Shown one piece after another: positions 3,554 to 51,247 of a DNA stretch of 56,412 nucleotides (its first letter is position 1; every line of letters starts with the position of its first letter). Position numbers and translations under genes: made by a program. The notes under the pieces were generated by a model that saw nothing but the letters and a program-made list of their open reading frames with translations, was not told the DNA's origin and made no database searches. This stretch comes from Muribaculaceae bacterium (GTDB taxonomy: Bacteria; Bacteroidota; Bacteroidia; Bacteroidales; Muribaculaceae). The DNA lies in assembly GCA_017557625.1 (NCBI GenBank), contig JAFYYG010000044.1:1-56412 (forward strand), read 5' to 3'.

Positions 3554-3559
3554 CTTTTT

Positions 3560-3622
3560 AGTTATCAGTTATGAGTTATGAGTTATCAGTTATCAGTTGT
3601 GAGTTATCAGTTGTCAGTTGTG
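3560..3622. repeat. GTTATCAG/TTATGAG microrepeat block
   Basis: About eight imperfect tandem copies of AGTTATCA/GAGTTATG/AGTTGTCA occupy the short gap between the priA start and the pseudogene. The units are too short and too close to be CRISPR. Confidence 0.75.
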
Positions 3623-13446: not shown

Positions 13447-15075
13447 ATGAAACGCATTATTATATATTTTGGGGCAGTGCTAATATTCGCATTCACATCG
13501 TGCGACAAGTTTCTCGATGAGAACCCTACTGACCGAATAACCGACAGCGAGGCTTACAATACAGAGGGCGACCTCTATCGCAATGCTGTGGCGGCACTTT
13601 ATAAATATGTGGGTGGCAACAGCAACAGTCAGGGGTTGCAAGGCACTGGGCGAGGAGTCTATGACCTCAACACCTTCACCACCGACGAGGCCATTATGCC
13701 CACTCGTGGTGCCGACTGGTTTGACGGTGGTTTCTGGCAAGACCTCTTCACTCACCAATGGGGAACAAGCAATGGTGCCATCGACGGTACATGGGACTAC
13801 TTGTTCCAAGCCATCATCAAGTGCAACGAGTCGCTTGAGCATATCGATGCCTTCCTCGCGCTGCATCCGAGCAACGATAAGGTGGCTGCTTACCGCGCTG
13901 AGGTTCGTGGTCTCAGGGCTATGTTCTATTTCTACGCTATGGACCTATATGGCCGAGTGCCGATATTCACCAATTCAAGCCCCGATGTTGCCGACATGAA
14001 GCTGCAACCTCGCAGCAAAACCTTCGACTTCATTCGTGGCGAACTGCTCGACGTGCTGTTATTGCTAAGCCATGACCACAGCAATAAGCCTGGAGACTAT
14101 TACGGCCGATTCACGGAGCCAGTGGCATTATTCCTGCTCGCAAAGTTGGCACTCAACGCCGAGGTCTATACTCACGACAACTGGACTGATGCCTCATCAC
14201 GTCTCGATGGCAAGAACATCATGTGGACAATATACGGCAGCAATTACAACACTTGGGAAGCAACAATATACTTCTGCAATGAGTTGGAGCACTATGGTTA
14301 TACTCTCGACAGGGATTTCATCACGCCATTTTTAGTGAATAATGAAGCTTCTTCCGAGAATATTTTTACCATACCTATGGATAAATATCTCTACACCAAT
14401 CAGTATATCTACCTGTTCCGCTCACGACACTACAACCATGCCGCTGCGTTAGGGCTCAACGGCGAGAACGGATCGAGTGCAACAATTGAGGTGCTCAACA
14501 CTTTTAAATATGGCACAGCCGAAGAAGACCCGCGTTTCACGATGAGCTACTATGCGGGCGAGGTATATGATTATAATGGTAACCAAGTGCTGCTCGATGA
14601 CGGCACACCGCTGGTCTATGAGCCGTGGAAAGTGGCTCTTGACGTGAGCGGCAAGCCCTGGGAAAAGACGGCGGGAGCGAGAATGCGTAAATATGAGATT
14701 GACCGTACTGCAACTAAAGACGGAAATCAGAGCGACAACGACATCGTGCTCTTCCGTTATGCCGATGTGCTGCTGATGAAAGCCGAGGCACTGGTGAGAA
14801 ACGGACAAAGTGGCGACGAGCCGCTCAACATGGTGCGTGACCGTGTGGGAGCGCCACACCGCAGTGCCACTCTCGCCACTATTCTTGATGAGAGAATGCT
14901 AGAACTTGCATGGGAGGGATGGCGCCGCAACGACCTGGTGCGTTTCGGTCTCTTCACAAGAGCCTATACCGACCGTCCGCAACTTCCTGGCGAGGCAAGT
15001 GGCTACACCACAGTGTTCCCCATCCCCGGCAAAATCGTCGCCCTGACAGGTGGCACGCAAAATCCTGGATATTAA
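13447..15075 (+). CDS. SusD/RagB-family substrate-binding lipoprotein
   Basis: 542 residues. The N-terminus is a lipoprotein signal ending FAFTSC-DKFLDENPTD, with the lipobox cysteine at about 19. Residues 30-330 have the SusD helical TPR-like scaffold (GTWDYLFQAIIKCNESLEHI, YRAEVRGLRAMFYFYAMDLYG). The C-terminal part has the usual closing motif VLLMKAEALVRNG, then ERMLELAWEGWRRNDLVRFG near 485-510. SusD caps the SusC barrel on the cell surface and binds the nutrient. It is co-transcribed with susC. I see no terminator downstream; the 65 bases to the convergent gene are a microrepeat. Confidence 0.93.
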   Translation: MKRIIIYFGAVLIFAFTSCDKFLDENPTDRITDSEAYNTEGDLYRNAVAALYKYVGGNSNSQGLQGTGRGVYDLNTFTTDEAIMPTRGADWFDGGFWQDLFTHQWGTSNGAIDGTWDYLFQAIIKCNESLEHIDAFLALHPSNDKVAAYRAEVRGLRAMFYFYAMDLYGRVPIFTNSSPDVADMKLQPRSKTFDFIRGELLDVLLLLSHDHSNKPGDYYGRFTEPVALFLLAKLALNAEVYTHDNWTDASSRLDGKNIMWTIYGSNYNTWEATIYFCNELEHYGYTLDRDFITPFLVNNEASSENIFTIPMDKYLYTNQYIYLFRSRHYNHAAALGLNGENGSSATIEVLNTFKYGTAEEDPRFTMSYYAGEVYDYNGNQVLLDDGTPLVYEPWKVALDVSGKPWEKTAGARMRKYEIDRTATKDGNQSDNDIVLFRYADVLLMKAEALVRNGQSGDEPLNMVRDRVGAPHRSATLATILDERMLELAWEGWRRNDLVRFGLFTRAYTDRPQLPGEASGYTTVFPIPGKIVALTGGTQNPGY

Positions 15076-15079
15076 CAGT

Positions 15080-15129
15080 AGAATACTCGAACATTCGAAT
15101 ACTCGAAAATTCGAACATTCGATTACTCA
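15080..15129. repeat. GAATACTCGAA-type microrepeat array
   Basis: Five to six imperfect 8-9 base units (ACTCGAAT/ATTCGAAC) fill the gap between two convergent genes. Related arrays occur at 43515-43551 and 51221-51247. Confidence 0.75.
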
Positions 15130-15140
15130 AGCTATGATGA

Positions 15141-15902
15141 CTAATAAACCACTTGCAGCCAGTTGCTCTGGTAGCGGGTGTTGAAGAAGTGTTCGGAGAG
15201 CTCTTTTGTGGGCTTTCCGTTCTCTCGCACCCATCCCCATGCCCAAGAGCCCATGTCAAGGTAAAGGGCCTGATTGGCGCCAAGAGATACCAGTGCATCT
15301 ATAAATTCTCCACAACACATGGGCTCGTCGCCCTGCACGATGGCGAAGCTGCCGTCGCTCATCACGCAAGCGGCGCGATAGATGATATGCGCCTTTCGGT
15401 CGCGGATGGCTTTGGGGATACGCTCCACTATACCCTTTCCGTTCTCCATAATAAGACATTGCTGGAACAGGAAGCCTTTGCCTTTTACAGCAGCTTCAAT
15501 CGACTCTTCAAGGAAACTGTTGCTCTTGATGGTCACTTTGTTGTCAAGAATAAGCATGTGACCAGTTGCTGTGACATCATCATAGCCCTTAATGCGCTCG
15601 CCAGCTACCACATGGTCGCCGCACACGTCCATCGATTCGGTGTCGAGGGTGAACGCTGCCGCCACGTTGAGCACAATGTTATCATCGTCGATGCTTGGCG
15701 CTCCTTTGAAGTCGCTTTGCTTATGGCTCACGAAACGCACTTGGGATTTCTCGTCTGGTTTCATCACCATGAGTTTATGTCCATCGGCTTCAATATTATT
15801 CACTGTCATCATTTCACTGCTCTTTACAAGTAAAGACTTAGTGCCACACCCCATGAGAGTCACGGGCAAAACACCAAGCAATATCCATTTAAAGATCTTC
15901 AT
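15141..15902 (-). CDS. Putative phosphodiester glycosidase-family (NAGPA-like) lipoprotein
   Basis: 253 residues. The N-terminus is a lipoprotein signal with lipobox LMGC at about 19. The C-terminal half resembles the phosphodiester glycosidase (NAGPA) family: FQQCLIMENGKG, RAACVMSDGSFAIVQGDEP and especially LGANQALYLDMGSW, which corresponds to the family's conserved A-x-N/Y-LDGG segment, and an NWL end. The usual GG is MG here. Family members in eukaryotes uncover mannose 6-phosphate; bacterial relatives act on exopolysaccharide or wall phosphodiesters. The assignment rests on these motifs only. It has its own promoter and converges on the SusD gene. Confidence 0.65.
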   Translation of the reverse strand: MKIFKWILLGVLPVTLMGCGTKSLLVKSSEMMTVNNIEADGHKLMVMKPDEKSQVRFVSHKQSDFKGAPSIDDDNIVLNVAAAFTLDTESMDVCGDHVVAGERIKGYDDVTATGHMLILDNKVTIKSNSFLEESIEAAVKGKGFLFQQCLIMENGKGIVERIPKAIRDRKAHIIYRAACVMSDGSFAIVQGDEPMCCGEFIDALVSLGANQALYLDMGSWAWGWVRENGKPTKELSEHFFNTRYQSNWLQVVY

Positions 15903-15916
15903 AGAATATTTTTTTG

Positions 15917-15924
15917 CAAAGTTA
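15917..15924 (-). promoter_or_regulatory. -7 element of the NAGPA-like gene
   Basis: TAACTTTG followed by C on the minus strand, 14 bases before the ATG at 15902; the leader would be very short. Confidence 0.45.
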
Positions 15925-15966
15925 AGACTTTTCTTTAAATAATTCCCTATAATTTATATAGTGCTC

Positions 15967-15997
15967 TTGCAAATGACAAGGAAAAATGGTACATTTG
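15967..15997 (+). promoter_or_regulatory. -33/-7 promoter of the sdhCAB operon
   Basis: TTG (15967-15969), 20 bases, TACATTTG (15990-15997), giving a leader of about 85 bases before sdhC. Confidence 0.6.
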
Positions 15998-16089
15998 CAC
16001 TTTAATTCCACCGTGTTTGTTCGCTGGCGGATACTATTGTATTGAAAATTAATTAACTAAATCAATTAATAACTAAATTCAAAACTACT

Positions 16090-16770
16090 ATGTGGTTATT
16101 TAACTCTTCGATAGGTAGGAAAGTGGTGATGAGTGTCACTGGTCTTTTCCTTATCCTATTTCTAACTTTCCATGCGCTGATGAACGCTGTGGCAGTCTTT
16201 TCGCTTGATGCTTATGAGGCTGTGTGCGAGTTTCTTGGCGCTAACTGGTATGCCCTCTTGGGCACTGCGCTTCTTGCCGCAGGTTTTGTGATTCACATCA
16301 TCTATGCTTTCTGGCTCACGTTTCAGAATCGCAACGCGCGTGGCAGTAACAACTATGCTGTTACCAAGCGCCCTAAGAGCGTGGAGTGGGCATCTCAGAA
16401 CATGCTCGTGCTGGGTATCATTGTGGCGTGCTTCCTCGTGTTGCACCTCTATCACTTTTGGGCAAAGATGCAATTGCCAGAGATTATGGGCAAAGCTCCC
16501 GACTCGGGTTATGCCGCTCTGAAGGCAACCTTCGAGCAGGCATGGGTTCTGCCGGTTTATCTGATTGGCTTCTTTGCCGTATGGTTCCACATCACTCACG
16601 GCTTCTGGAGTGCTTTCCAGTCGATTGGTGTTAACAACGACAAGTGGCTCAACCGCTGGAAATGCATTGGCTGGTTCTGGGCTACCTGTGTCATGGTGCT
16701 CTTTGCTGTTTGCGCTATCGCTCTTACTGGCAAGTTTGCCTGGGGATGGACATGCGTGGGTGGATGCTAA
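16090..16770 (+). CDS. sdhC: Succinate dehydrogenase/fumarate reductase cytochrome b subunit
   Basis: 226 residues with five predicted membrane helices, the layout of the single-subunit diheme cytochrome b anchor (B. subtilis/W. succinogenes type). It starts with SSIGRKVVMSVTGLFLILFL, where helix I begins. Histidines that could ligate heme lie in helices I (TFHALMN), II (FVIHIIYAF), IV (HLYHFW) and V (WFHITHGFW). It passes electrons between the menaquinone pool and the iron-sulfur subunit in the inner membrane. It is the first gene of the operon, 38 bases before sdhA. In gut Bacteroidales the complex works mainly as a fumarate reductase. Confidence 0.92.
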   Translation: MWLFNSSIGRKVVMSVTGLFLILFLTFHALMNAVAVFSLDAYEAVCEFLGANWYALLGTALLAAGFVIHIIYAFWLTFQNRNARGSNNYAVTKRPKSVEWASQNMLVLGIIVACFLVLHLYHFWAKMQLPEIMGKAPDSGYAALKATFEQAWVLPVYLIGFFAVWFHITHGFWSAFQSIGVNNDKWLNRWKCIGWFWATCVMVLFAVCAIALTGKFAWGWTCVGGC

Positions 16771-16808
16771 AAAATGCTGAGTAATTAATCATTTAAAATT
16801 TTACGAAA

Positions 16809-18818
16809 ATGGAAGAAAACTTAAAGAACAACGTTGCTCAGCCTGCTATTGACTCTAAGATCCCTGAGGGACCAGTAGCTGAGAAATGGACCAATTATAA
16901 GGCTCATCAGAAACTTGTGAACCCTGCCAACAAGCGCCGTCTTGACATCATCGTTGTGGGTACCGGACTGGCTGGCGCCAGCGCCGCAGCCACTCTGGGC
17001 GAGATGGGCTTCAAGGTGTTGAACTTCTGCATTCAGGATTCACCCCGCCGCGCCCATTCTATCGCCGCTCAGGGTGGTATCAACGCAGCTAAGAACTATC
17101 AGAACGACGGTGACTCGGTTTACCGCCTATTCTATGACACTGTGAAAGGTGGCGACTACCGCGCCCGTGAGGCCAACGTGTATCGCCTTGCCGAAGTGTC
17201 GAACAATATCATCGACCAGTGCGTAGCACAGGGTGTGCCCTTCGCTCGCGAATATGGAGGCTTGCTCGCCAACCGCTCCTTTGGTGGCGCTCAGGTGAGC
17301 CGCACATTCTATGCCAAGGGTCAAACAGGCCAGCAGTTGCTGCTTGGTGCCTACTCGTCGCTCAACCGTCAAATCAAGATGGGTAACGTCAAGAGCTACA
17401 ACCGCTATGAGATGCACGACGTGGTAATCATTGACGGCCGCGCACGCGGTATCATCGCCAAGAATCTCGTCACTGGCAAACTTGAGCGTTTCGCTGCCCA
17501 TGCTGTGGTAATCGCAACTGGTGGCTATGGCAACACCTATTTCCTCTCGACCAACGCCATGGCCTGCAACGTGAGTGCCGCTATGGCTTGCTACCGCAAG
17601 GGTGCTTACTTCGCTAACCCGGCCTATGTTCAGATCCACCCCACCTGTATCCCACGCCACGGCGACAAGCAGTCGAAGCTCACCCTGATGAGTGAGTCGC
17701 TGCGTAATGATGGCCGCATCTGGGTGCCCAAGGATCTTGACGCTGCCAAGCGCTTGCAGAACGGTGAAATCAAGGGTAGTGACATTCCCGAGGAGGAGCG
17801 TGACTATTACCTCGAGCGCCGCTATCCAGCCTTCGGTAACCTTGTTCCACGCGACGTGGCAAGCCGCGCCGCTAAGGAGCGTTGCGACAAGGGCTATGGT
17901 GTCAACAACACTGGTCAAGCCGTGTTCCTCGATTTCAGTGAGGCCATCAACCGTTTGGGCATCGATGTGGTGCGTCAGCGTTATGGCAACCTCTTCGATA
18001 TGTATGAGGAGATCACCGACGTGAACCCTGGCAAGAAGGCCAGCACAATCAATGGTGTGGATTATTACAATCCAATGATGATTTACCCTGCTATCCACTA
18101 CACTATGGGCGGTATATGGGTTGACTATGAGCTTCAGACCTCCATCAAGGGCCTCTTCGCCATAGGCGAGTGCAACTTCAGTGACCACGGTGCTAACCGA
18201 CTCGGTGCTTCGGCACTGATGCAAGGTCTTGCCGACGGCTACTTCGTGCTGCCTTACACCATCCAGAACTACCTGAGTGACCAAATCACTGTGCCCAGAT
18301 TCTCCACTGATCTCCCAGAGTTTGAGGAAGCCGAAGAGCGCGTTCAGGCCGACCTTGATCGCCTTATGGCTATCCAGGGCAATCGCTCGGTTGACTCCAT
18401 CCACAAGGAATTGGGTAATATCATGTGGGACTATGTTGGCATGGGACGCACTAAGGAGAGCCTTGAGACCGCTATCGAGAAAATCAAGGAGCTGCGCAAA
18501 GAGTTTGAGACCAATCTCTTCGTGCCTGGCAATCAGGATGGCATGAACATCGAGCTCGACAAGGCGTTCCGTCTGCGTGACTTCATCACTATGGGTGAGC
18601 TCATCGCCTACGATGCTCTCAACCGCGAGGAGTCGTGCGGTGGACACTTCCGCGAGGAGCACCAGACCGAAGAAGGCGAAGCAAAGCGCGACGACGAGAA
18701 CTTCTTCTACGTGGCATGCTGGAAATACAACGAAGACGACACCAAGGCACCGTCATTGATTAAGGAGCCGCTCCATTATGAGGCAATCAAAGTACAAACA
18801 AGAAACTATAAGTCATAG
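16809..18818 (+). CDS. sdhA: Succinate dehydrogenase/fumarate reductase flavoprotein subunit
   Basis: 669 residues. The FAD-binding fold starts with [19 protein letters not shown] (about 50-68). [14 protein letters not shown] is the segment carrying the histidine that binds FAD covalently. Catalytic-domain motifs follow ([11 protein letters not shown], then YTMGGIWVD and [19 protein letters not shown]). It interconverts succinate and fumarate on the cytoplasmic side of the membrane. Its TAG stop (18816-18818) abuts the left arm of an inverted repeat. The iron-sulfur partner gene is separated from it by 563 bases containing a foreign-looking gene, which is unusual for this operon. Confidence 0.95.
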
Positions 18819-18821
18819 TTT

Positions 18822-18839
18822 AGTAAACGAGTTAACAAG
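18822..18839 (+). repeat. Left inverted-repeat arm (18 bp)
   Basis: AGTAAACGAGTTAACAAG, starting 4 bases after the sdhA stop; exact reverse complement at 19345-19362. Confidence 0.85.
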
Positions 18840-18875
18840 TTTACAAGTTAACAAGCAGTTACATTTTTTGGTTCC

Positions 18876-19235
18876 ATGGCAGTATATTCTACGCATAAAG
18901 AGTTGAGTGTTTGGAAAAAGAGCATACAATTAGTTAAAGAAATATATTTGACTACTCAATCTTTTCCTTCAGAAGAGCGATTTGGCATAGTAAATCAGAT
19001 GAGAAGGGCTGCAGTATCTATTCCTTCGAACATTGCAGAAGGCTATGGTCGCAAATTCGAAAAAGAACGCTCACGCTTTTTAAATATTGCTTTGGGTTCG
19101 GCCTCTGAGCTAGAGACTCAAGTAATAATAAGTGGAGAACTATCTTTTGTTGACGAAGATGCATATAAAACATTGATTAATCTTACAATGGAGGTTATCA
19201 GGATGCTTGCATCTTTAATCAAAACTATGGAATGA
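18876..19235 (+). CDS. Four-helix-bundle protein (S23 / 23S-rRNA-IVS family)
   Basis: 119 residues with the family's full signature: ELSVWKKSIQLVKEIY, TQSFPSEERFG, QMRRAAVSIPSNIAEGYGR, RFLNIALGSASELETQ and a final helix. The fold is four helices that form a pentamer; relatives include the Avd accessory protein of diversity-generating retroelements, which binds nucleic acid. The biological role of stand-alone members is unknown. It lies between sdhA and sdhB in the same direction, inside an inverted repeat, and its codon and base use are more AT-rich than its neighbours, suggesting it arrived later than the operon. No reverse transcriptase or rRNA is nearby. Confidence 0.9.
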   Translation: MAVYSTHKELSVWKKSIQLVKEIYLTTQSFPSEERFGIVNQMRRAAVSIPSNIAEGYGRKFEKERSRFLNIALGSASELETQVIISGELSFVDEDAYKTLINLTMEVIRMLASLIKTME

Positions 19236-19344
19236 TGCGGTTTAACTTGACTTGTTGATTGCTATATTCGTTAAAAATTAATATTTTATAATTTACAGGT
19301 AAAGGGAGTTTTTCATGTGACGACAAAGTGTATCTGCTTGTTTA

Positions 19345-19362
19345 CTTGTTAACTCGTTTACT
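19345..19362 (-). repeat. Right inverted-repeat arm (18 bp)
   Basis: CTTGTTAACTCGTTTACT, the reverse complement of 18822-18839; it ends 19 bases before the sdhB ATG. Confidence 0.85.
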
Positions 19363-19381
19363 TGTTAACTAAAGAAAAAAT

Positions 19382-20137
19382 ATGGATACTAATATAAGCG
19401 TAAAACTAAAAATTTGGAGGCAGGCAAATCCTAAAGCGCAGGGTAAATTTGTGACCTATGAGTTACAGGATATTCCTACTGATACCTCATTCCTCGAGAC
19501 TCTTGACATCCTTAATGAGCAGCTTGTTGAGAAGGGCGAAGAACCCGTAGCTTTTGATCATGACTGCCGCGAGGGAATCTGCGGCATGTGCTCGCTATAC
19601 ATCAATGGACATCCTCATGGGCCCGCTACTGGAGCTACAACTTGCCAGCTCTATATGCGCCGCTTCCGTGACGGCGAGACCATCACTGTAGAGCCCTGGC
19701 GTTCGGCAGCGTTCCCTGTACTTAAGGACTTGATGGTGAACCGCAACGCGTTTGACCAGATTCAGCAGGCTGGTGGCTACGTGAGCTTCAACACTGGCGG
19801 TGCTCAGGATGCCAACGCTATCCCCATCAGTAAGGTGGATGCTGACGAGGCAATGGACAGCGCAACTTGTATTGGTTGCGGCGCTTGCGTGGCTGCCTGC
19901 AAGAACGGTTCGGCTATGCTCTTCGTGGCAGCCAAGGTGAGCCAGTTTGCCCTCCTGCCACAAGGTAAGGCCGAGGCAAAGAAACGCGTGAAAGCCATGT
20001 TAGCAAAGATGGATGAGTTAGGATTCGGCAACTGTACCAACACTGGTGCCTGCGCCGCCGAGTGTCCCAAGAACATCAAGCTCAGCAACATCGCACGCCT
20101 CAACCGCGAGTTTATTTGCGCCAAAAGCAGCGATTAA
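19382..20137 (+). CDS. sdhB: Succinate dehydrogenase/fumarate reductase iron-sulfur subunit
   Basis: 251 residues. It carries the three cluster-binding sets of the family: CREGICGMC for the [2Fe-2S] centre (about 63-71), [11 protein letters not shown] (about 162-172) and [12 protein letters not shown] (about 219-230) for the [4Fe-4S] and [3Fe-4S] centres. It relays electrons between the flavoprotein and the cytochrome b subunit. It closes the operon and is followed by a strong terminator. The interruption upstream means its expression depends on read-through across the cassette or on a promoter inside it; only a weak candidate (TATATTCG at 19263-19270) is visible. Confidence 0.95.
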
Positions 20138-20160
20138 TATCGCGAAATTCTGGATAATAT

Positions 20161-20198
20161 CAAGTCACCCACGATAACCATGGGTGACTTGTTTTTTC
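20161..20198 (+). terminator. Intrinsic terminator of sdhCAB
   Basis: CAAGTCACCC (20161-20170) and GGGTGACTTG (20182-20191) form a perfect 10-bp stem followed by a run of seven T. Confidence 0.9.
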
Positions 20199-20265
20199 TT
20201 GGAACGCGGTTTTCGTTCGCTCACAACATTATTATGCCTTTTTGTTGCATGATTCATTGAAATAA

Positions 20266-20297
20266 TTTGTATAATTAGTTGAATTTTACTAACTTTG
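20266..20297 (+). promoter_or_regulatory. -33/-7 promoter of the 1158-residue secreted protein
   Basis: TTTG (20266-20269), 20 bases, TAACTTTG (20290-20297), then C; a textbook fit. Confidence 0.7.
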
Positions 20298-20349
20298 CGA
20301 CCAATTTACGAGAATATACAATTGTTTTTAAAATTAATTTTACACAAAA

Positions 20350-23300
20350 ATGAGAAAAATTCTAACCTTTTTGATGCTCCTGACCTTAGCCACCACGGCA
20401 TGGGCAGGAGAAAAAACTATTACCATCTCACGTAACGACGTAGCATGGGAAAGTGCCAACACCGTTTACAACGTTACTAAGGGTGGTGTCGAGTTGGTAA
20501 TGTCGGGCGGTATGAACAACCCCAACTTCCTACTGATGAAGCAGCACACCACTATCACAGTGAAGTCGCACAACTTCAACATCAAGAGGATTGTGTTCCA
20601 CTGTTTGGACAACTACACCAACGACAACCTCGACCCATTCTACTGGGGTCCTAGAACGCTGCACATCCAGTATAGTCAGACTCATGCCGAGACTGCTGGA
20701 ACGCTGACCTATAATTATGGTGGCAGTAGCTACGACGCCCTCTGGGTATCGACTAAAAGCAGCTCTCCAGGAAACTACCCCGACGGTCTTCCTGCTGGCT
20801 ATGAGCTGATGTTTGAGAACGAAGGCAAACCAGTGCGCTTCGCTTCTATCGACATTACTGTAGAGCAAGAATCAGGCGACATGTATGAGCTGGTGACAAG
20901 TACCAGTGAGTTGAACACCACCAGTAACTACATGTTGGTGGGAAGGTCCACGTCACAAGCCACCGATGGATATGCCATGAGCGTTAACACTACTGGCTCA
21001 TCTGCCACCGACAACATAAAATCGACAAAGGTTCAGATGATTGATAATGGTCTGCGTGTGAAAGCTAACGATGAGACTCAATTCATCAAACTTCAAACAG
21101 GAACAGGAAATAACACTTACAGATACTATATAAAGGCTGGAACTAATACTATAAGGAGCCAATCAACTTATGAAAATTCACAAAACTATAATCATGGATT
21201 CTGTTTGACAAAGGTGAACAATCTGCCTTCTGCAGACTATGTCATCACAAAGATTACAATCAATGACCCAGGAGAGAATTATGCGTCTAACTGGGATTAT
21301 TACGCCGATATTAGGTATAAATTTTCTAACCCATACTCAAACGGCAGTTCTTATGCTTTGCGTCACAATAATGATTACAAGCAATTTAGGAATCTTTATG
21401 ACAACAATTCCCGTCAGCGCGTCTATCTCTACAAGCCAGCTCAGCAGTATAAGGTGACCACCGAGGTTCAGCCCGATGCATCTTATGGCAGCATCTCGCT
21501 GCGCGACGGTATCTTGGTGGATAACGGTATCAACTGGTCGCAGAAGATGGACACCGTTCAATTCCTTGTGACACCTGCTGATGGCTATAAGGTGAAAAGC
21601 ATCACCATTCAGCAATTAAATGGCACTGAGGTGGTTGGCACTGTTGATATCTTGAGCAGCAGCCAATCTATCAACGGTACGCTTTATAATTTCGTGATGC
21701 CAGGCAACGATGCTAATATTGTCGTTGAATTTGAGGAAGTTGAATACCACAACGTTAACATGGTAATAAAACCTCGTTCGGTGTGCGGTAATATCTTCCT
21801 TACCGAAGGATATGTGGTTCAGAACGATCAAGTGAAGTCCTACGATGGGCAAACTGTAGTGTTTAACGTTACTCCAAACCCCATCAATCCAGCAAATGAG
21901 TCTGAAGGCTATTATGAACTCTCTTACGTCACTATCACCGACAATGTTACTGGCATTGAGACCACTCTTGTTCCTGATGCTCAAGGCAACTATTCATTCA
22001 CTATGCCCGATAATGAAGTGACCATCACTGCATACTTCTATGATAATACAAAGTCGCCATTGTGGTTGCTGGGTACTGCCAACGGCAATGATACTTGGCA
22101 CACCTACGGTCCACGCTTCAACTACAACGATGAGACCGATGAGTACTATATTGACGTATATTTCACAGGTACAGGCAATTATGGCGACCAAAATGGCGAG
22201 GCCTTCGGTCGTTTCAGCGTGACTTGGAAAATTGATCTCAACGACAACTGGGGCAATATCAATAATCAGAATCTGCGTGGTGTGCCAGGTGAACCCGATT
22301 ATCTTGTGAATGAAAATTCCCAAAATGTTTACTTGTGGTACGGAAATGCTTATGAGAACAACTCCTTCAAGATTCCAGCAGGTATCTATCGTATCTATGT
22401 CGGAACTACTGCAAGTGAAAATAAGGGTAATCTGCATAACAACGAGTTGAAGATTGAGAAATACAACCCAACCCTCGCCTTCAATCCTGCTGGTGGTGCC
22501 GATGCTGCAAGTGCTGTTGAAGTTCCACAGAATCAATTGGTATCTCTCGTTGGTGACCTTTATACCAAAGTTAAGGGCATTAATCCTGATGAGGCTGACG
22601 CAAACTTCATGTACAAAGCCACCAAGACCGTTGATGGCAATGCAACTACCGAAACTGAGAACGCTACAACTGCCACCAACAATATCTCTGTTCTCGACGT
22701 AGTGAACGATGGCGAGACCGTTACTCAACTCGATGGTTGGAACTACCTCGGCTGGATTGTTGCTAACAACACTGCTTACTACAAAGTTACTGAGACTCCA
22801 CTCCACTGGATTGAAGAGTTTGGTGAGAAGGACAAGACCTACACCGTTAGCGACCGTCTGCAGGGTGTTTATGCACAAGGCTCAAGTCTGTGGTGTAAAG
22901 ACCTCGGTGACATCTCGATTGTAAAGACCGTGCCTTATGCCGGCCAAGTTGACTATTTGGCAAGCACTTTAACCACCACCAATCATCTATTCCCCGATGC
23001 TATGCGCATAGGCAATTGGGACCAGAGCAACTGGGTAGAACTTGACTTCTCAGGCTTCGGCGCTTCGGGTAACGCTATGGCAAGCGCTTTAGTGAACAAT
23101 TACATCCAAGAGAAGACAATAACTGGTGTATATACCGATGATGTGAACTACACCATCAAGGTTACCTCCTCGCCAGTTGCCGATGGCGGTGCAAGCTATG
23201 TGCCAAACACCTATTGCGTTTCTAACTTCTTGGAGAGCAACCTCACTCTCAAAGATGGTGACACAGGTCCAAGTGTTACTAAAGATGGTACAACCACCTA

Positions 23301-40199: not shown

Positions 40200-41609
40200 A
40201 TGAGAAAAATATTTAGATTATCTTTTGTCGCCACATTAATATTAATAAGTGGTGTGATGAAGGCTCAGGAAAATGACTCTGTGCCTTACATCAGTCTTGA
40301 CAAGATGCCAAACATCATCAATTGTCTGCCAGCACCACCTGTCCCTGGCAGCGAGATGTTTCAGCACGACATTAATAGGTATGTATGGGGCAAGGAGCAG
40401 CGGAATGACTCCTTGAGAAATGCTATCGCTCGCAAAGATGCCATCTGGGGCATGCAATATGTGCTCGACACCTTTGAAGAAGCCTTTGGGATGCACATCT
40501 CTAAAGCTGAGACCCCTGAGATTTGGAAGCTTATGCAGCATGGCGTAAACACTGTGACACAGATACGTAGCACACCAAAAGCCTTCTACCAGAGAATTCG
40601 ACCGTTCAAGTATTTTGAAGAGCATTTGTTGACTTATAATAAAGAGGAAGATGAGTCAATAATCGCCAACGATGGCTCCTATCCCTCTGGACACACTGCC
40701 ACCGCATGGGCGGCAGCAATGATACTTGCCGAACTCAATCCCGCACATGCCGACGCACTATTTGCTCGTGCCTATCAGTATGGCGAGAGTCGTCTCATTG
40801 TGGGAGCGCACTGGCAGAGTGACGTGGAAGCGGGGCGACTGGTGGCTGCCATCGGCTATTCGCAGGTGCACAACAGCCCAGAGTACTGCGAGCAGATGGC
40901 GCGAGCCAAGGCAGAGTTTAACCGCCTAAGCGGAGCTGCCGTTGCTACCGACGACTGCAGCGACTTTGTCCACATAACCGATGTGGTGCCCGATGCCATC
41001 CTCGAGATTCGTTATCACAGCACCTATAATTTCGTGGGCGAGCGCATCGACGGATATTTTGCTCCCACTGCGATGCTCAGCCGCGAGGCCGCCACAGCCC
41101 TTAAGGCGGTGAGTGACGACCTTAAGGCTCAAGGCTATCGTCTTAAGATTTTTGATGCCTATCGTCCTCAGCGTGCCGTTGACCATTTCATGCGTTGGGC
41201 GCAAGACCTGCACGCCACCGAGATGAAGCAGTATTTCTATCCCGAACTCAACAAGAATGTGCTCATCCCCGACTATATCGCCCGCAAGAGCGGCCATACT
41301 CGAGGCTCGACGGTTGACCTCACCCTCTTCGACATGAAGACTGAGAAAGAGGTGGATATGGGCTGCACTTTCGACTGGTTTGGCGTGGAGAGCCATCCCG
41401 ATTTCTGCGGCAACCCCGACACTGGCAAATACACTGGCGGCAAGTCGCCTGCGGGACGCTCCATTACTGCCGAGCAGTTCCACAATCGCATGATATTGCG
41501 CCAGGCGATGCTCCGCCACGGCTTCAAGCCCCTCGATACCGAGTGGTGGCACTTCACCCTGAAAAATGAGCCATTCCCAAATACCTACTTCACATTCCCG
41601 CTTAAATAG
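40200..41609 (+). CDS. PAP2-type acid phosphatase fused to D-Ala-D-Ala dipeptidase (VanX family)
   Basis: 469 residues with a signal peptide ending VMKAQ (about 22). Residues 110-235 are a class A acid phosphatase/PAP2 domain with all three signature parts: K-x6-RP in KAFYQRIRPF, YPSGHTATAW, and SRLIVGAHWQSDVEAG. Residues 258-469 are a VanX/DdpX dipeptidase: EIRYHSTYNFVG, FDAYRPQRAV, zinc ligands in SGHTRGSTVDLTL, and EWWHFTL with the catalytic Glu and last zinc His. Both active sites look intact. The export signal puts both in the periplasm, where they could act on lipid phosphates and on D-Ala-D-Ala released from peptidoglycan. The pairing in one chain is unusual. No vancomycin-resistance genes are adjacent, so wall recycling is the likelier role (inference). 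Confidence 0.9.
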   Translation: MRKIFRLSFVATLILISGVMKAQENDSVPYISLDKMPNIINCLPAPPVPGSEMFQHDINRYVWGKEQRNDSLRNAIARKDAIWGMQYVLDTFEEAFGMHISKAETPEIWKLMQHGVNTVTQIRSTPKAFYQRIRPFKYFEEHLLTYNKEEDESIIANDGSYPSGHTATAWAAAMILAELNPAHADALFARAYQYGESRLIVGAHWQSDVEAGRLVAAIGYSQVHNSPEYCEQMARAKAEFNRLSGAAVATDDCSDFVHITDVVPDAILEIRYHSTYNFVGERIDGYFAPTAMLSREAATALKAVSDDLKAQGYRLKIFDAYRPQRAVDHFMRWAQDLHATEMKQYFYPELNKNVLIPDYIARKSGHTRGSTVDLTLFDMKTEKEVDMGCTFDWFGVESHPDFCGNPDTGKYTGGKSPAGRSITAEQFHNRMILRQAMLRHGFKPLDTEWWHFTLKNEPFPNTYFTFPLK

Positions 41610-41610
41610 T

Positions 41611-41650
41611 GGAGAGTGGAGAGGTGAGAGTGGAGAGGCGAGAGTGGACG
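41611..41650. repeat. GTGGAGAG/GAGAGTGG microrepeat
   Basis: Four imperfect units of GAGAGTGGAG follow the stop of the fusion gene. A pyrimidine-rich TTCTCTTG repeat follows at about 41695-41722. Confidence 0.6.
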
Positions 41651-41732
41651 AACGCCGCTGATGCGGCGCAATACATTAACAGCGCCCAGGCTCGTTCTCT
41701 TGTTTTCTTGTTCTCTTGTCCCCTTTTATATT

Positions 41733-43514: not shown

Positions 43515-43551
43515 GCTCGATTATTCGATTGCTCGATTACTCGAATACTCG
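43515..43551. repeat. GCTCGATTA/CTCGAATAC microrepeat array
   Basis: Four imperfect 8-9 base units (CTCGATTA, TTCGATTG, CTCGATTA, CTCGAATA) between two genes, related to 15080-15129 and 51221-51247. Confidence 0.7.
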
Positions 43552-43574
43552 CCCCGATAGAAATAATTATAAAC

Positions 43575-50019: not shown

Positions 50020-50075
50020 TTAGTTAGTTTGTTGGTTGTTTTTTTGTCAAGTTGTAGTGAATACTTTTGTCTTGT

Positions 50076-51047
50076 TTACTTGTTAGCTTGTTTGCTTGAA
50101 TTAATCAGTGCCTTGAAGTAGTTAACACCCTCGTATAGTTGCATGAATGTGCCTGCGGTAGGGGAGTTGTTGAGGTGCTGGCACACAGCCTCTTCGGGGT
50201 GAAACTGCACACCTAAGGCAAAGGTCTTGTCGTTGCGCTCGATGGCCTCGATGATGTCGGTACCTTGAGTGGGTGTTATTCCGGTGACCTTGAGTTCGGT
50301 GCCTTCCACACTGCCCACCACTTGATGGTGCCACGACGGCGCATTCTTGATTTCGTCGCTCAGCGCTATGCTGTAGAGCAGCGACGAGCGGTCGGTGACC
50401 TGCACGTCGTGAGGCGTGTAGTGGCGTTTGCCGTTCTCGTCGCGCACGGATCGGTGCAGGTTGTTATAATCAACACCTTGCACCGAGTAATATGTGCCAA
50501 GGTCTTGAATTAACGTTGCCCCCGACACCACACCAAGCATCTGCATACCTCGGCACAGGCACAGCACGGGGATGTCGTGGTCGAGGCAGTAGGACATGGT
50601 GAGATACTCCGACACATCGCGCGTGGCGTTGCACACGTCGCCAGCAATGCCATGCCACGGCTGCGGCTCGCGGAATAGGGTAGAGCTGATGTCCTCGCCG
50701 CCGAGGAACACCACAGCGTCGATGCCCTTCATCAGCGAGTCGATGGTGGTGCCATGATAGGTGTTGCGCTTCACCTGGTCGGCATACTGCTGAAGCAGCA
50801 CACCATCGCTGTCGAGATATTTACTTTGAAGCTCAGTGCTGTCATAGTCAAAGCCGGCAGGACGCATTTGTGGCAAGATGACCGCCTCGCCATCAGCGAG
50901 CTCTATGGACCACGCCACTCGCTCGTAGGCTTTCTCATCAGGCTGCCACGCCATGCCCACGCGCACCACGTCCTGGGCACTGGTTACACCGCCCAGGCAC
51001 AGCCACACCATCACTAGCAGCGAGATTTTATAGATGATATTTCGCAT
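50076..51047 (-). CDS. Exported class I glutamine amidotransferase-like protein (peptidase C26 / PuuD-like)
   Basis: 323 residues with a signal peptide (LLVMVWLCLGGVTSAQ). The mature part has the class I amidotransferase triad: nucleophile in VLCLCRGMQMLGV, and His/Glu in GVQFHPEEA. AVVFLGGEDISSTLF matches the GG-D substrate loop of gamma-glutamyl-GABA hydrolases. An exported member suggests it cleaves gamma-glutamyl bonds outside the cytoplasm, in diet or wall peptides (inference). The last residues (SSKQANK) are encoded by a TTAACAAG-type microrepeat, so the natural end may have been replaced. Confidence 0.88.
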   Translation of the reverse strand: MRNIIYKISLLVMVWLCLGGVTSAQDVVRVGMAWQPDEKAYERVAWSIELADGEAVILPQMRPAGFDYDSTELQSKYLDSDGVLLQQYADQVKRNTYHGTTIDSLMKGIDAVVFLGGEDISSTLFREPQPWHGIAGDVCNATRDVSEYLTMSYCLDHDIPVLCLCRGMQMLGVVSGATLIQDLGTYYSVQGVDYNNLHRSVRDENGKRHYTPHDVQVTDRSSLLYSIALSDEIKNAPSWHHQVVGSVEGTELKVTGITPTQGTDIIEAIERNDKTFALGVQFHPEEAVCQHLNNSPTAGTFMQLYEGVNYFKALINSSKQANK

Positions 51048-51206: not shown

Positions 51207-51220
51207 CATTGTAAAATATC

Positions 51221-51247
51221 GTAAACTCGAAAACTCGAATGCTCGAG
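51221..51247. repeat. ACTCGAAA/ACTCGAAT microrepeat
   Basis: Three 9-base units (AAACTCGAA, AACTCGAAT, GCTCGAG) in the leader of the PKD-protein gene, of the same type as at 15080 and 43515. Confidence 0.65.

Follow-up and report, generated by a model that had tools for sequence, protein, structure and literature searches.

The stretch of DNA analysed here, called the window below, is the 56,412-nucleotide contig JAFYYG010000044.1 of a Muribaculaceae bacterium (GenBank assembly GCA_017557625.1). It is contig 32 of the genome designated G000; the other G and L numbers denote congener or relative genomes and their loci. In the window, 563 bases separate the end of sdhA (18818) from the start of sdhB (19382), two gene names that we take from the preliminary description of this DNA and from known motifs. 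A single notable open reading frame (ORF) lies between them, at 18876-19235. Profile searches assign its product to the S23 family: it matches PF05635 with 134.7 bits against a cut-off of 33.8 and is also matched by TIGR02436. The S23 gene has a GC content of 36%, sdhA of 54% and sdhB of 52%. The preliminary description was thus right to report an AT-rich S23-type gene that splits sdhA from sdhB. Neither host ORF is broken by the inserted cassette.

The cassette has complementary ends. The exact 18-bp arms reported in the preliminary description are present, AGTAAACGAGTTAACAAG at 18822-18839 and its perfect reverse complement at 19345-19362. However, 18 bp is not the true unit. Each flank is a tandem array of an 8-bp word (AGTTAACA / AGTAAACA), so that the arms are pieces of arrays whose word varies by copy, and the idea of a fixed 18-bp unit had to be dropped. 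Arm complementarity is 92% over 26 nt and 80% over 60 nt. We scored the inverted flanks of 326 ORFs of at least 90 amino acids (aa) in 456 kb of G000 (contigs 38, 58, 23 and 40 and the window, picked for S23 genes or arm matches). The window S23 gene received the top score, 58 against a median of 18. Scores of at least 31 were found for five of the 326 ORFs, two S23 genes and three others, in a scan that overlooks S23 genes with an early in-frame ATG. There was no Rfam match at 15000-22500 of the window; the cassette lies outside any rRNA gene and is flanked by protein ORFs. A known transposase is absent from the cassette, the only sense-strand ORF of at least 60 aa being the PF05635 one. A word similar to its arms is dispersed without an S23 gene at four further places in G000. 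In addition, at about 1509-1582 of L005 (G000 contig 23) the sdh-type word forms an inverted pair around a short loop, without a gene, similar to a miniature inverted-repeat transposable element (MITE). The features are collected in Table 1.

Table 1. Positions, in the window, of the cassette, its host genes and further word arrays
Feature	Position	Strand	Basis or remark
sdhA, host gene upstream of the insertion	16809..18818	+	669-aa ORF
S23 cassette, arm to arm	18819..19373	+	Inverted arrays; same-site comparison; RNA fold pairs the ends
Left array, 8-bp word of AGTTAACA type, about 4 units	18821..18856	+	Starts 2 nt past the sdhA stop codon
S23 / 23S_rRNA_IVP four-helix-bundle gene, 119 aa	18876..19235	+	Profile match; structure model
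Right array, reverse complement of the left array's word, about 4 units	19337..19370	+	
sdhB, host gene downstream of the insertion	19382..20137	+	251-aa ORF; matched in 94/101 congeneric genomes
Further period-7/8 arrays without S23	3554-3622, 15087-15123, 41608-41637, 41690-41727, 43516-43553, 50070-50099, 51218-51247		

Starting from the SdhB matches, we read the sdh junction in 30 congener loci, the comparison of relatives that the preliminary description had called for. In 25 of the 30 the gap between sdhA and sdhB is short, 5-33 nt and often 6 nt (e.g., TAATGAATTATG). In the other five, namely the window, L151, L152, L155 and L160, it measures about 500-563 nt and is filled by an S23 gene. 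An S23 gene is also found at this site in G015 (L009), and S23 fragments in G005. The S23 proteins of the sdh site form one group (96/73, the fork not starred). Three different words occur among the filled sites: AAGTTAAC in G000, AGTAAAAT in G001, and CAAGAAGA/CAAGAAAA in G011 and G042; the own-arm scores are 58 in G000, 34 in G011 and 43 in G042. A second shared site (clusters 4 and 5) has the words GTGGAAG (score 35), CGGGGAT (47) and CGTTTAT (52), and one locus with weak arms (L027, score 23). Since words at the same site differ between species while each matches its own partner arm, an inherited cassette apparently tends to keep its arms alike as the word changes. In G047 (L173), the 27-nt junction includes CTTGTTTACGACTG, similar to an arm unit, which might be a cassette scar.

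Comparison of relatives also shows cassettes at different sites. Those with the TAGTYYC word (L010, L015, L042 and L012, in G025, G048, G006 and G007) lie at different sites and have 69-75% DNA similarity over 433-520 bp, stopping at the arms; same-site pairs align over 1660-1670 bp, flanks included. In these relatives, as distinct from the window copy itself, the inverted ends delimit the mobile unit, as homology between sites stops there. One cyanobacterial plasmid cassette family (L289-L293) occupies three sites, in Aulosira, in Trichormus/Scytonema and in Nostoc, with 411-427 bp in common; copies at different sites are 78-82% identical in DNA. Two plasmids of Nostoc sp. ATCC 53789, locally 91-99% identical, each hold a cassette where the other is empty. 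Other empty sites were found in Nostoc carneum and Microchaete (compared with Trichormus), in Nostoc C057 (compared with Nostoc C052), in Tolypothrix and Aulosira (compared with Calothrix), and in a second Aulosira plasmid. At the six filled/empty plasmid sites the flanks are 88-99% identical and the inserts measure 413-518 bp. One of the six has a clean 5-bp target-site duplication, GTAAT. At another, TTCTA could be a duplication but also microhomology, since a copy at a different place has the same final letters. Two of the ten compared pairs read as decay: the Nostoc C052 copy (L301) has lost most of S23 and kept the left array, and in Nostoc carneum (L299) the left array and the first 26 nt of the S23 ORF remain. 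Mobility is shown here by comparison of sequences, in that a site filled with an arm-gene-arm unit in one genome is empty in a close relative, and related units stand at unrelated sites. The mobile cassette considered in the preliminary description is in agreement with this.

Inverted word arrays flank many S23 loci. We scored 48 loci of the genus (2 of 50 skipped), 26 of the phylum (4 of 30 skipped; threshold 31) and a broad set of 90 loci from named genomes or plasmids, some of them Bacteroidales (the best 80 of 591 confirmed loci plus 12; 2 of 92 skipped; threshold at the 99% level of a cross-locus comparison). Taken together, 97 of the 164 loci exceed the inverted-arm threshold. The median inverted score in the genus set is 47, versus 18 in direct orientation and 18 against the flanks of other loci, and 39 of the 48 loci reach at least 31. 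In the broad set, 48 of 90 loci are over the threshold in inverted and 14 of 90 in direct orientation. These passers include Cyanobacteria (words TAGGGAG, ACAGGGA and AGGTGAC), Gemmatimonadota, Planctomycetes, Clostridia and candidate phyla. In the phylum set, 10 of 26 loci reach 31, compared with 2% of cross pairs.

The periods of the left and right arms in 87 armed loci are 7/7 in 58, 8/8 in 17, 6/6 in 2 and mixed in 10. Among the 66 of these loci with at least three units on both sides, a word has an identity of 0.87 to its own partner arm versus 0.54 to others, and partner words differ at no more than one position in 51. The variable positions of the word coincide between the arms (r 0.54, rotated maximum 0.18, in loci whose words differ at no more than two positions). 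The upstream arm is poor in C (0.10-0.11) and richer in G (0.24-0.28), which points to a preferred polarity of the word. The word varies from copy to copy and is similar where the S23 proteins are related: over 1712 pairs across sites, protein and word identity correlate with rho 0.34, a value reached in 0 of 200 permutations.

The window S23 protein was predicted to consist of four helices with a pLDDT (predicted local distance difference test score) of 94.6, in line with the four-helix bundle of the preliminary description. According to Foldseek, the model resembles the solved S23 proteins 2gsc (TM-score 0.93) and 2rld (0.77-0.82); these have five chains each, and the window protein was modelled as a single chain. 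It also resembles Avd (4dwl; TM-score 0.77, E about 0.02, probability 1.00) and the Avd chains of 8ub7, a reverse-transcriptase complex of a diversity-generating retroelement (DGR). A remote kinship with Avd is visible in the sequence as well (bAvd 4.8e-6, DivGenRetAVD 2.4e-5, each under its own cut-off). Homology of S23 and Avd has also been argued in PMC10053308, which, like the other papers below, is cited from the part of its text available to us. The ratio of nonsynonymous to synonymous substitution rates (dN/dS) is 0.04-0.17 in 14 of 17 S23 pairs, those with finite dS, and dS exceeds 2 in four of these. As far as sequences tell, this comparison shows that the S23 protein is kept under purifying selection. 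In an alignment of 17 S23 sequences, R44, E55 and R59 are among the residues that never vary. The S23 ORF at L040 (G000 contig 58:40657-40854) is truncated and has a stop codon within the match. CRISPR loci on plasmids of Pseudanabaena and Anabaena also hold S23 genes between cas6 and cas4 (L056 and L065). These are possibly cassettes rather than CRISPR parts; the available text of a CRISPR survey names the 23S rRNA IVP in a figure legend.

The preliminary description had regarded a common intergenic repeat unrelated to S23 genes as an argument against its proposal. The repeats did turn out to be common. The 456 kb of G000 contain 40 noncoding arrays with a period of 5-12, of which 39 have period 7 or 8; 32 of the 39 are single and seven are in inverted pairs within 900 bp. 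Six of the seven enclose four S23 genes, and one is a gene-less heptamer pair with a 5-bp gap (G000 contig 38:62588-62681). They are not unrelated to S23, however: the pairs with a gene-sized gap, at four loci in a search within 900 bp, all enclose an S23 gene. In the window, the arrays at 15087, 41608, 43516 and 51218, the four tested for pairing, are single. In G060, which has no S23 match, neither of the two arrays found in 400 kb of even sampling has period 7 or 8, and no such array was found in 114 kb sampled in total from five further S23-less genomes. Eight S23-positive samples gave 1-4 period-7/8 arrays in five cases and none in three (G003, G025 and G031).

Pattern searches extend this relation to whole genomes. 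These searches count overlapping matches, so that hits do not equal arrays, and the cassettes' own arms supply part of the hits; the reversed pattern, meant as a control but also of the heptamer type, enters the total only in the count of 296 genomes. PF05635 matches are present in 55 of 61 congeneric genomes, with up to 9 per genome. Word-pattern hits were found in 52 of these 55 and in none of the six S23-less genomes, and their number correlates with the S23 count (rho 0.49, kinship ignored). Among 296 genomes of the phylum, at least 10 hits occur in 106 of 213 genomes with strong S23 matches, in 5 of 22 with weak matches only (best E above 1e-9) and in 5 of 61 without S23. The difference holds inside one family (12 vs 34 genomes, p 0.001, weak-only genomes left out). 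Many pattern hits were noted in G194 and G204, which have no S23 match, and in G341, which has only a weak one. A single word gives a similar picture: of the 11 genomes that have an S23 protein at least 70% identical to that of L048, which is of the GATTAG type, 9 have GATTAGN arrays with at least 7 hits, compared with 4 of the 50 other genomes. An initial pick of eight genomes (8/8 vs 5/53) had omitted three with 71-73% relatives, G002, G021 and G035; G002 has another word, and the words of G021 and G035 are unread, as is that of G006, which was kept in the initial pick.

The cassette shares features with several known systems. In REP/RAYT systems (repetitive extragenic palindromes and their associated tyrosine transposases), a gene is enclosed by a repeat in inverted orientation, and further copies of this repeat stand alone elsewhere in the genome. 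Likewise, the gene of the sdh cassette is flanked by an inverted repeat whose word is dispersed without the gene; in contrast, the S23 cassette carries no Y1 tyrosine transposase, and its word is tandem and changing where REP is a fixed palindrome. One ORF of S23-less G060 (L212:17472-17918), one of 2/315 with strong inverted flanks, overlaps a Y1 match and is REP/RAYT-like. Insertion sequences (IS) and MITEs have terminal inverted repeats. The S23 cassette resembles them in its inverted ends, filled and empty sites, gene-less remnants and one clear 5-bp duplication, but it measures 413-518 bp, has no known transposase and ends in arrays. With the Avd of DGRs, S23 has the fold and the remote sequence kinship in common; unlike a DGR, the window's contig has no reverse transcriptase match, and the two such matches in G000 are on contigs 34 and 46, neither beside the window S23 gene. 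Heptamer repeats, for which the name STRR is used, have been described in Beggiatoaceae, Cyanobacteria and Bacteroidetes (MacGregor 2015, PMC4679880). They are also intergenic 7-bp tandem arrays, and some of the phyla are the same. Here, however, the arrays are tied to S23 genes; neither 'S23' nor 'four helix' appears in the available text of PMC4679880.

In the intervening sequences (IVSs) of rRNA, too, an S23-family ORF lies in the loop of a long hairpin with complementary ends. The sdh cassette differs in standing between protein genes, and such cassettes reach up to 9 copies per genome, have varied words, and move as arms plus gene. IVSs with an S23 ORF are reported from Leptospira, Coxiella and Alphaproteobacteria (PMC4990558). 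In Coxiella, GACAGAT heptamers precede the S23 start, in a number that varies by strain, and the same paper cites older proposals that IVSs are mobile elements. A paper on the rRNA of CPR (candidate phyla radiation) bacteria gives 23S_rRNA_IVP ORFs in 16S and 23S insertions. In our broad set, L066 on plasmid AZO_p2 of Azospirillum lipoferum is an S23 gene inside 23S rRNA. A repeat finder showed that its arms are heptamers, AGAGGAC/GGATGAC, with 86% complementarity over 36 nt, although it scored 20 and failed the arm test. Given the heptamer arms in Azospirillum and the heptamers in Coxiella, the classical rRNA IVS looks as if it were the same element at one of its landing sites, and the kinship with 23S rRNA IVSs that the preliminary description drew is strengthened. 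A location in rRNA was rejected as the reason why loci lack arms: among 20 of the 42 loci at or below the broad-set threshold, Rfam places only L066 in rRNA.

Taken together, we consider that the interval is probably a miniature mobile element, in which a four-helix-bundle gene is flanked on both sides by arrays, inverted to each other, of a word of 7 or 8 bp and its S23 product mobilises it. The correlation of protein and word similarity across sites suggests that S23 recognises its word. Avd works in a complex with reverse transcriptase and RNA, and the predicted Avd-like fold of S23 would fit a nucleic-acid partner. Binding of the protein to its own word, either on DNA or on a single-stranded copy, would lead to copying of the cassette and its insertion between genes, with the help of host enzymes of replication or repair or through an activity of S23 itself. 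The inverted arms may anneal and template each other; changes made by slippage would then pass to both arms, and the protein would follow. Decay of the gene would leave an array behind, which would explain the gene-less arrays. In rRNA genes the same hairpin would be an IVS cleaved by RNase III. A wider proposal, as likely as not in our view, is that S23 proteins form a new class of mobility factor recognising an evolving 7/8-bp word, that they make elements of about 410-560 bp, that the heptamer arrays found in Cyanobacteria and Bacteroidota originate from them, and that rRNA IVSs are copies that landed in rRNA. We know of no self-encoded bacterial transposon smaller than this.

Several observations weigh against an element moved by S23. 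The protein has no known catalytic or nuclease domain. Loci that fall short of the arm threshold number 9 of 48 in the genus set, 42 of 90 in the broad set and 16 of 26 in the phylum set, and at the sdh site itself the own-arm match is weak in G001 (L013, 27) and G015 (L009, 26). With its short arms and an ORF that extends into the right one, even the mobile family L289-L293 scores no more than 16-22. No target-site duplication is evident at four of the six filled/empty sites, and at three of these four 10-42 other bases lie between the matching flanks of the empty plasmid. Some pairs counted as different sites may be one site for which different flanking ORFs were chosen. The genome correlations ignore ancestry apart from the one family stratum, five genomes have arrays and no detected S23 (G188, G194, G204, G332 and G339), and 3 of the 55 S23-positive congeners have no pattern hit.

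The missing nuclease domain would be explained if S23 were a passenger of a non-autonomous element moved in trans by a host transposase of the Y1 type (IS200/IS605-like) or by a reverse transcriptase. The fold relative Avd acts with a reverse transcriptase; Y1 matches are present in 55 of 61 congeners and absent in 4 of 6 S23-less genomes, and the number of Y1 matches shows a weak correlation with that of pattern hits (rho 0.29, p 0.02). However, 22 genomes with at least 50 pattern hits have no reverse transcriptase match, and the correlation of hits with reverse transcriptases is -0.09. Dependence on a reverse transcriptase is therefore not supported, and such a partner is unlikely. G057 lacks a Y1 match but has 4 S23 matches and 47 hits, and G012 and G060 have Y1 without hits, which makes Y1 transposases poor candidates. 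As the genomes are incomplete, these absences are soft. Moreover, one transposase could hardly recognise every word, and the words track the S23 sequence. We regard mobilisation in trans as unlikely.

It is somewhat more doubtful that the cassette is an mRNA-borne IVS, as the preliminary description suggested: the sdh transcript would fold at the arms and be cut by RNase III, the ratio of sdhA to sdhB output would be altered, and the arms would be kept for the RNA stem. The anatomy does match that of the S23 gene inside 23S rRNA, whose IVS stems are known to be cut by RNase III (PMC4990558). The interval as RNA is predicted to close end to end at -151 kcal/mol, compared with -119 (standard deviation 5.9) for shuffled sequences (z -5.46), and none of 100 shuffles folds as well. 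A stem-loop in the transcript is thus predicted; selection for it is not supported. Selection for an mRNA stem should favour G-U over A-C among the arm mismatches on the sense strand, and their numbers are 47 and 39 in the genus set and 36 and 65 in the broad set. There is no clear excess of G-U, which speaks against such selection. Copying at the DNA level, for example by fold-back templating and slippage, explains the co-changing arms better, and we infer that it lies behind them. In addition, cassettes stand as movable units between genes of many kinds, and 25 of the 30 relatives read have none at the sdh site.

Improbable in our view is that the arrays arise by replication slippage alone and that S23 genes settle in or between them. 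Single, gene-less arrays do prevail in G000 (32 of 39), heptamer repeats have been published without S23 (PMC4679880, in its available text), and three S23-positive samples (see above) have no period-7/8 array. Insertion into one array, however, would yield direct rather than inverted flanks, six of the seven paired arrays enclose S23, S23-less G060 has no such array in 400 kb, and two gene-less arrays read as cassette remnants. A phase-variable segment, in which recombination between the inverted arms around the one gene flips S23, is very improbable; inversion of the cassette was rejected, as the S23 orientation is identical in all five filled sdh loci read and in L009.

The function and origin of rRNA IVSs are called unclear after 25 years in PMC4990558, and no mechanism for the spread of heptamer repeats is given in the available text of PMC4679880. 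Among the titles listed in searches of the open-access literature, which covers subscription journals only in small part, no paper was recognised as connecting S23 to both IVSs and heptamer arrays. Linking the two to S23 offers a single cause that can be tested, namely a protein co-evolving with its own tandem word. Should S23 indeed be the mover, it would be a mobility factor without a known nuclease domain and with a changing word recognition. The S23 cassette may thus explain the origin of a known class of bacterial short repeats.

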